Assembly: GCA_011390365.1 (NCBI GenBank)
Contig: JAABSM010000018.1
Location: 1 to 55,581 of the forward strand
Source of the DNA: Gammaproteobacteria bacterium
GTDB taxonomy: Bacteria; Pseudomonadota; Gammaproteobacteria; Chromatiales; Chromatiaceae
Direction of reading: 5' to 3'
DNA length: 55,581 nt
Positions 9,458 to 10,994 of this stretch are shown here, in pieces (the first letter of the stretch is position 1; the number at the start of each line of letters is the position of its first letter). Under the pieces are notes generated by a model. The model had not been told where the DNA came from. It ran no database searches and was given only the letters and a program-made list of their open reading frames with translations. A program made the translations under genes and the position numbers.

Positions 9458-10106
9458 GGGGGCGACTTGGCTTCGACGTGGGTTGCAAAACCTGAGGTGC
9501 ATGCCGAGGATGCAGATCTCCTCGTAAATCCATCTGCAAAAAGATAGTTGCCAACGACGACAACTACGCACTCGCTGCTTAAACCCCAGTAGGGTGCCGT
9601 CTCACTGAAGCCGTGCTTGTGCGTTCAGGTTTGAGGCGTCATATCTCACAAGATCGCGCGGAGGCTGGCCTGGGGCCAAAGCGCTAAAACCTTACCGGGA
9701 TCGCCGTTTGATCACCCTGTCCGTCGGGTGACAAGCGGTTAAAAAAAATAGACCGGACTAAGCATGTAGAGCCGAAGGCGGAGGACTTGCGGACGCGGGT
9801 TCGATCAAAAGGTCGCCTTCACCCGAAAGGGTGAAGTGAAAACGGGGCTCACATCGGTGAAACCTACAGCGAACTTCCTGAAAGTTCGCCAAGGCAATAC
9901 CGAGGGGTAGGAAGAGGGCCAACCTCAGACCTGCCCTGTAGAGACTCATAGACGCGCTGAAATCCTCGGACCGAGCGCGCACTAGGATTCGCGGTGGAGA
10001 TTGAATGCCGCGAATAACACGCCCCGCACCCTGGAAACTCCAGGGTGAAGGTATAGTCCGGCCCGTTTCGAAAGAAATGGATCCAGCCGTCCCGCCGCCT
10101 CCACCA
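9458..10106 (+). ncRNA. ssrA: tmRNA (one-piece), interrupted by a group I intron
   Basis: tmRNA rescues stalled ribosomes by acting as alanyl-tRNA and then as mRNA for a degradation tag. The 5' end GGGGGCGACTTGGCTTCGACG (9458 on) pairs through GGGGGCG with CGCCTCC before the 3' ACCA (10103-10106). The tag frame starts at GCC 9550 and reads ANDDNYALAA, then TAA (9580-9582), one residue from the E. coli tag. The T-arm is split: the 5' exon ends GCGGGTTCGAT at 9805 and the 3' exon resumes TCCCGCC at 10090. Joining them restores a GCGGG/CCCGC T-stem with a TTCGATT loop. Mature length would be about 365 nt. A terminator follows at once. Confidence 0.97.
9806..10089 (+). other. Group I intron in the tmRNA T-loop (284 nt, no ORF)
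   Basis: The exon ends in U at 9805. The exon CGAU plus the first intron base C pairs with GGUCG (9811-9815) to form P1, placing the expected U-G wobble at the 5' splice site. P2 is a perfect CUUCACCC-GAAA-GGGUGAAG hairpin (9818-9837). Core blocks like P, Q, R and S of group I introns are visible: GGUGAAACCUAC (about 9856), GGCAAUACCGAG (about 9893), GUAGAGACUCAUAGAC (about 9938) and GAAGGUAUAGUCC (about 10047), with GACU/AGUC able to form P7. A GAAA-capped P9-like hairpin precedes the terminal G at 10089. No homing endonuclease frame fits. Confidence 0.92.
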
Positions 10107-10110
10107 AAGC

Positions 10111-10145
10111 AAAGCCCCGACCTGTCAAGGCCGGGGCTTTTTTTT
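10111..10145 (+). terminator. Rho-independent terminator of ssrA
   Basis: Stem AAAGCCCCG/CGGGGCTTT with an interior loop, followed by T-run 10138-10145, starting five bases after the tmRNA CCA. Confidence 0.9.
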
Positions 10146-10149
10146 GCGC

Positions 10150-10188
10150 AAAAAACAAGGCCCGCCGGCATTGCTGCCGACGGGCCTT
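10150..10188 (-). terminator. Rho-independent terminator of the CsrB-like RNA
   Basis: Read leftward the stem is AAGGCCCGTCGGCA/TGCCGGCGGGCCTT with a GCAA loop, followed by G and six T. It lies back to back with the ssrA terminator, so the two RNAs are convergent. Confidence 0.88.
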
Positions 10189-10576
10189 AGGGAATATCGG
10201 ATCACCGCAACCCGATAGAGCCTCCTGTCCGTGATCATCCTGACCACTCGCCGACGATATCCCTATCGCGACTCACTCCATTGACGAACGCTCCCCGCGA
10301 CGACGCCATCCTGGCATCGCCAGCCCATCCCGGGCTCTCCCTCCGCCTCCCTGCCACCGCCACATCCCGTGGCGGCCCGTGCCGCTTACCGCGGCCTCCC
10401 GCACCGGTCCTCCTGACCGGGGAATCCCTTCCCGGCACCTTCCCGTGCCTTCAACGCTTCCCAGATTCTCCTTGCCGCGTCCTTCCTGTTGCCTTCCCTT
10501 GCGGGCCATCCTGGCCAAGGCCTTCCTGGCTGGTCGGGCCATCCTGGCCCGGACCCCCAGAACATCCTGTCCTTGG
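10157..10576 (-). ncRNA. csrB: CsrB/RsmB-like CsrA-sequestering RNA
   Basis: CsrB-type RNAs titrate the translational regulator CsrA through many GGA motifs in hairpin loops. Read leftward, this interval has 28 GGA triplets, including five exact copies of the CsrA motif CAGGATG. Many sit in loops of short perfect stems, for example GGGCC-AGGAU-GGCCC, GCC-AGGAU-GGC, GGUC-AGGAG-GACC and GAU-AGGGAU-AUC. A strong terminator ends it. The 5' end is estimated: a weak -10 (GATACT, 10582-10587) lies upstream and no -35 is visible, which fits an activator-dependent promoter. The symbol is by family resemblance. Open frames here are by-products of high GC. Confidence 0.85.
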
Positions 10577-10994
10577 CGCTTAGTATCGTTGAGCCGCCGG
10601 CTTTTCGCTGTAGTAGCATTTTGCAGCTTGTGTAGGACAATTCCGAAAACCGCGAAGGCATCGCCGAGCTCGGCTCAGCGATCCGACCTGTTACCACTTG
10701 TAACTATTCAGATCGCTACGCGAAAACGCGGTTTTACGGCGCCCATCCATGGGCCCCGCCCCCGCGGGGTTTCCATATAAGATTCGCTGCTGGCGAATCT
10801 TTCGCTTGCGACGAAGGGGGAGAGTGCCAGCTTCTCCCCCTTTGAAACCCCCAATCCGTTGTGTAACCATCTACGGCGATCCCGCTATCGCGGGATGCGC
10901 GGAATCGTTACTCCCACTTTTCCACATGCGAAACGGCGTCGGGAAAGGTAGAATCCCCACTGCCGCAAATCACGGAAACAAGTCAGACGAAAGC
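10577..10994. other. Intergenic region between csrB-like RNA and ybgC, with inverted repeats
   Basis: No gene is supported. Near the CsrB-like RNA an imperfect dyad, TTGT-N5-ACAA (10628-10640), could bind the response regulator that usually activates such RNAs (GacA/UvrY), but it is a weak match. Other dyads are GATTCGC/GCGAATC (about 10782-10800), GGGGGAGA/TCTCCCCC (about 10817-10842) and ATCCCGC/GCGGGAT (about 10880-10898). The last 100 bases should contain the tol operon promoter; I see no consensus boxes. Confidence 0.4.

Follow-up and report, generated by a model that had tools for sequence, protein, structure and literature searches.

The window (the whole stretch of DNA analysed, 55,581 nucleotides from a gammaproteobacterial genome) holds a single ssrA gene, which encodes tmRNA, at positions 9458-10106. 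This gene is split by a 284-nt insert at 9806-10089, and the features of the locus are the following:

9458..9805, forward strand: ssrA 5' exon, with the 5' strand of the acceptor stem, the tag frame ANDDNYALAA, the 5' strand of the T-stem and the first six nucleotides of the T-loop (from RF00023 and the sequence)
9806..10089, forward strand: group I intron, 284 nt, with a terminal G (from the RF00028 match, covariation in 40 relatives and an insert at the same place in a congener)
10090..10106, forward strand: ssrA 3' exon, with the last T-loop nucleotide, the 3' strands of the T-stem and the acceptor stem, and an encoded CCA (from the joined-exon fold)
10111..10145, forward strand: probable intrinsic terminator of ssrA, a AAAGCCCCG / CGGGGCTTT hairpin followed by a T run (from the fold)

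The Rfam tmRNA model (RF00023) matches at 9458-9824 with 199.2 bits, the sole match above the cut-off in the 4.26-Mb genome (besides 11 weaker ones), and it finds the tmRNA parts in the standard order. The 3' end of the model is misplaced into the intron, because the true tmRNA 3' end lies at 10106 and the last model positions are forced into the insert. ARAGORN called no tmRNA in the window. The 5' exon terminates with GGACGCGGGTTCGAT at 9805, and the 3' exon reads TCCCGCCGCCTCCACCA, letters with which many uninterrupted family tmRNAs, found by a T-arm pattern search, also end. When the exons are joined, they give a 365-nt tmRNA with an encoded CCA, a T-stem of five pairs, a T-loop of seven nucleotides and a fully paired acceptor stem (7 of 7, including one G-U). 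The intact 5' half, the tag, the CCA end, and the split after 9805 with resumption at 10090 are as the original prediction had described them. The tRNA-like domain, the tag frame and smpB, by which a functional tmRNA would be recognised, are all present in the genome.

The fold of 10105-10150, which includes the probable terminator, has an energy of -23.4 kcal/mol, and the hairpin at 10111..10145 is absent from the list of a consensus terminator scan. A promoter scan for ssrA found none; the candidate TTGCAC-17-TACACT, picked by eye, matches at only 7 of 12 positions, so no promoter is claimed.

A candidate CsrB/RsmB-like regulatory RNA was observed downstream at 10156-10620, on the minus strand and facing ssrA. 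By simple count it holds 10 hairpins with GGA in the loop, and it contains 13 AGGA motifs, a number that none of 1000 letter shuffles (mean 3.4) attained. There are also three partial CsrB matches (the best with 21.4 bits of a 71-bit gathering score, E 0.00066) and a terminator-like hairpin at 10189-10156, and CsrA is encoded in the genome. Against this candidate, 8 of the 1102 equally long stretches of the window are as rich in AGGA motifs. On the same strand downstream of ssrA in 21 other loci, two of which had fewer than 600 bases, no more than two GGA-loop hairpins were found.

Identity and structure of the insert

The Rfam group I intron model (Intron_gpI, RF00028), whose use had been proposed with the original prediction, matches at 9791-10080 over its full length (positions 1-253 of 253) with 36.3 bits and an E value of 1e-7; across the 4.26-Mb genome, where its E value is 2e-7, no other match has E <= 0.001. 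The score lies under the curated gathering score of 50 bits, so independent support was sought. When eight related loci were scanned together with this model, only L046 and L106 reached E 0.001. The stretch 9790-10110 folds to a lower energy than its dinucleotide shuffles (z -5.44, 0 of 100 equally low).

According to the boundaries, which were set by comparison with uninterrupted relatives, the insert lies after the sixth nucleotide of the TψC-loop, that is, between loop nucleotides 6 and 7 (UUCGAU/U). Exon CGAU pairs with intron GUCG to form P1, with a U-G at the 5' splice site, P2 is capped by the GNRA tetraloop GAAA, and the intron ends with a G, in agreement with what had been noted before. 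This terminal G is found in 95 of 95 introns passing the rule for relatives (one from the window, 6 viral and 88 from genome contigs), a rule that does not demand it; the U-G pair, being part of the search pattern, cannot serve as a test among the relatives.

All 13 helices form in the window intron, including the P3-P9 core with the P3/P7 pseudoknot; we presume that the names of the general group I scheme apply to them (P1, P2, P3, P4, P5, P6, P6a, P7, P7.1, P7.2, P8, P9 and P9.0). The window's own row has standard pairing at every pair of the tested structure, a weak point alone because the structure was written from the window. In 40 related introns, aligned by sequence alone (alignment A1), this structure of 74 pairs in 13 helices is paired in 95.7% of the cells, compared with 35.9-43.5% when slid. 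Both sides change at 40 of the 74 pairs, and the covariation score is 0.309; shuffles give 0.128, and slid versions no more than 0.072. None of 500 shuffles was as high on any of five measures, a comparison that is inflated by kinship among the 40 rows. Most of the helices show covariation; changes on both sides occur at all eight pairs of P2, and in P9.0, which adjoins the 3' splice site, a G-C changes jointly to A-U. Because the search pattern already requires the four exon-side pairs of P1, nothing can be concluded from their constancy. P7 is invariant in the 40 introns, which makes covariation impossible and likewise gives no evidence. P8 is 85.4% paired in the 40 rows, the third pair of P5 is broken in 25 of them, and P10 is poor by eye.

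The full-length model match, although under the gathering score, the covariation and the T-arm restored by joining the exons bear out the prediction that a gammaproteobacterial tmRNA gene is interrupted in its T-loop by a group I intron. That the insert is some other element, such as an island integrated at ssrA or the spacer of a permuted tmRNA, might be entertained given that tmRNA genes are often integration sites (available text of PMC11915505). Nevertheless, this is hardly credible for an insert of only 284 nt with group I architecture and covariation, in a gene whose tmRNA parts stand in the standard order.

No homing endonuclease was recognisable in the window intron (Pfam and PHROGs, E 1). 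An antisense frame of 137 aa at 9758-10171 (minus strand), which spans the whole intron and its borders, was rejected as an endonuclease, neither Pfam nor PHROGs giving a match at E 1, and is probably due to chance in GC-rich DNA.

The available text of a 2025 survey (PMC11915505) reports 883 intron-form tmRNAs from 21 phyla, still mainly Bacillota, so that the earlier statement placing these introns in a few bacterial lineages is outdated. Most of them lie at T-loop position 7, and 36 have homing endonuclease genes; in this text, supplement aside, the words Gammaproteobacteria and Pseudomonadota have 0 occurrences. The window intron resembles the position 7 form in the gene, the loop position, the -1 U paired to G in P1 and the terminal G, and no structural difference was found from what that text describes (PMC11915505). 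Its 284 nt compare with a published mean of 293 nt for the founding set, and, like most of the published cases, it is without a recognisable homing endonuclease (same text). The tmRNA intron of Clostridium botulinum, from another phylum and likened here by description, not by sequence, has the same host gene, with 287 nt versus 284 nt in the window and a 5' exon of 338 versus 348 nt, and it had previously been shown to self-splice (available text of PMC2729099). Judged by these likenesses, the window intron is a further case of the intron-form tmRNA already known from many bacteria.

Occurrence and movement of the intron among relatives

The comparison of ssrA with that of sister genomes, also proposed earlier, has been carried out, and the congener G001 (the other sampled species of the genus; SLIM01000034.1) bears in the same gene, at the same place, a 300-nt insert (Intron_gpI 29.8 bits). 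An assembly or binning artefact would be conceivable in a genome assembly of 169 contigs. However, it is rendered extremely improbable by the same split gene in this separate record and by the neighbouring tgt and tol genes, which look proteobacterial by eye. It is further opposed by the window tmRNA being nearest to family members by path on the exon tree, with no starred branch holding it there.

A scan of named genomes, which requires an exact sequence match on either side of the splice site and therefore undercounts and gives no frequencies between phyla, found at least 117 pattern stretches, of which at least 88 hold a complete tmRNA T-arm, an intron and a 3' exon. These passing loci comprise at least 62 from Gammaproteobacteria, at least 10 from other or unclassed Pseudomonadota, at least 15 from other phyla and at least one without a phylum. 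The remaining stretches among the 117 listed are either cut at contig ends (5) or fail the rule (24), the latter including L122, an intron cut at a contig end, and L159, which begins intron-like and for which no 3' exon was found. Two metagenome-assembled records titled Klebsiella pneumoniae (L109 and L124) have intron-bearing tmRNAs that group with environmental gammaproteobacteria, and these titles may be wrong.

In the family (Chromatiaceae in the NCBI taxonomy, which holds Thiocapsa), the pattern occurs in 17 of 211 genomes, two of which correspond by the coordinates of their hits to Thiocapsa sp. KS1 and Thiocapsa roseopersicina DSM 217. Reading of the loci confirmed 14, from 6 of 61 genera, and rejected three. 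The uninterrupted T-arm pattern was found in 150 of the 211 genomes, the 14 confirmed carriers all lacking it, and 47 genomes have neither pattern. In a sample of the class, the pattern occurs in 21 of 369 genomes, with 19 confirmed (including the window's genome) and two rejected. These family and class counts are lower bounds, given the exact pattern, and a reversed-pattern control matches one of 211 and two of 369 genomes. The named-genome, family and class sets overlap (for example, both the congener and Thiocapsa are present twice). The rarity of the tmRNA intron in this group, which had been described as uncommon in this lineage, is not supported by these figures, nor by the presence of Thiocapsa, Thioalkalivibrio, Methylophaga, Parahaliea, Pseudohaliea and others among the matches listed.

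The tmRNA introns of Thiocapsa, Thioalkalivibrio, Methylophaga and Halieaceae have the same site and core as that of the window, but they lie on other branches of the intron tree; the intron of Thiocapsa sp. KS1 is 75.2% identical to the window's, whereas the nearest one compared, L145, reaches 83.3%. On this tree of 99 introns, the 14 family introns need five changes, at least four of them forced by well-supported branches, and their union in one clade is rejected (p-AU 5.9e-5) in a test that leaves out 13 viral, long-branched or distant rows. The p-AU value is 0.011 when G012 and G069 are also removed, a grouping chosen after seeing the tree. On the joined-exon tree (114 rows), the tmRNA bodies for the most part remain within the family, G012 pairing with the intron-less G004 and G069 with the intron-less G022 (99/93 in both cases, all of them family members), and the family is not one clade, with four changes, at least two of them forced. 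The introns of the family are not one clade, whereas its tmRNA bodies largely keep to the family, so the introns have moved sideways. In addition, the tmRNA of G012 is 83.4% identical to that of the window, with introns only 53.0% identical; between G012 and L158 the introns share 86.9% identity and the tmRNAs 72.9%. Introns have thus moved between tmRNA genes.

The pairing of the window with its congener on the intron tree (99/86) suggests that the intron was inherited within the genus. However, it counts against this inheritance that the two introns share 78.7% identity, below the values for the window intron against L145 (83.3%) and L143 (82.5%), and that no supported branch joins the two on the exon tree. 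According to these trees and identities, the intron lineage is one that has spread sideways among gammaproteobacterial tmRNA genes.

Six presumed viral contigs from IMG/VR (L040, L041, L043, L044, L045 and L046) hold a predicted intron of the same kind at the same T-arm motif, and the Rfam tmRNA was found in five of them, but not in L040. The intron of L043 scores 103.7 bits with RF00028, those of L041 and L045 are alike, with 672 nt, and that of L046 has 777 nt, above the 700 given as not exceeded in the available text of PMC11915505. The L041 intron carries an antisense endonuclease-like frame (LAGLIDADG_3, 2.9e-5) which is 52% identical over 132 aa to an antisense frame in the intron of L086, from Candidatus Marithrix (PHROG endonuclease, 4.8e-23, no Pfam match), and L046 has a different antisense endonuclease-like frame (phrog_3322, 1.6e-17). 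The relatedness of endonucleases from viral and bacterial tmRNA introns points to a possible route of spread. A search of INPHARED with the window tmRNA gave 12 similar records, with at most 28% query cover and none past query position 345, so the intron was untouched. It is conceivable, though somewhat doubtful, that one nucleotide site of ssrA has been invaded repeatedly and independently within the Thiocapsa-holding family by introns travelling separately from the tmRNA body. The vectors between bacteria would then be tmRNA genes borne by phages, in whose T-loop introns homing endonucleases can occur.

Predicted splicing and ribosome rescue

The ssrA gene almost certainly harbours, at the principal site known for tmRNA introns, a group I intron that would self-splice to give a 365-nt tmRNA acting with SmpB. 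As is general for group I introns, the precursor would be transcribed through the intron, the pairing of exon CGAU with intron GUCG in P1 would mark the 5' splice site by its U-G, and a guanosine bound in P7 would attack this site. The freed exon end would then attack after the terminal G, so that the ligated junction would read GGGUUCGAUUCCCGC and the T-loop would be rebuilt in a 365-nt tmRNA with SmpB, encoded in the genome, as its partner. That splicing takes place in the cell, by each of these steps and with a functional product, is to be expected from the structure and from the tmRNA intron of C. botulinum (available text of PMC2729099).

No ArfA was found in the genome, in a search whose control finds ArfA in E. 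coli alone. The genome does encode an ArfB-like protein (NF006718, 181.8 bits), presumably to be named ArfB, so that rescue need not rest on splicing alone. The earlier claim that rescue of stalled ribosomes depends on self-splicing would therefore hold for tmRNA-based rescue, but need not do so for rescue as a whole. The same protein, together with the RF00028 match below the gathering score, would also fit a decayed group I intron without splicing, in which case ssrA would be a pseudogene and rescue would be carried out by ArfB. This is nonetheless very unlikely, as the window structure has standard pairs throughout (in itself a weak argument, the structure having been written from the window), SmpB is kept, and the congener keeps an intron with compensatory changes in P2.

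Self-splicing of the intron, the preferred reading, would bear on how tmRNA genes are found and used in these bacteria. The blank result of ARAGORN in the window implies that such ssrA genes can be missed, and the impression of rarity is corrected: an appreciable minority of the genomes of this class need to splice out an intron before trans-translation can proceed.
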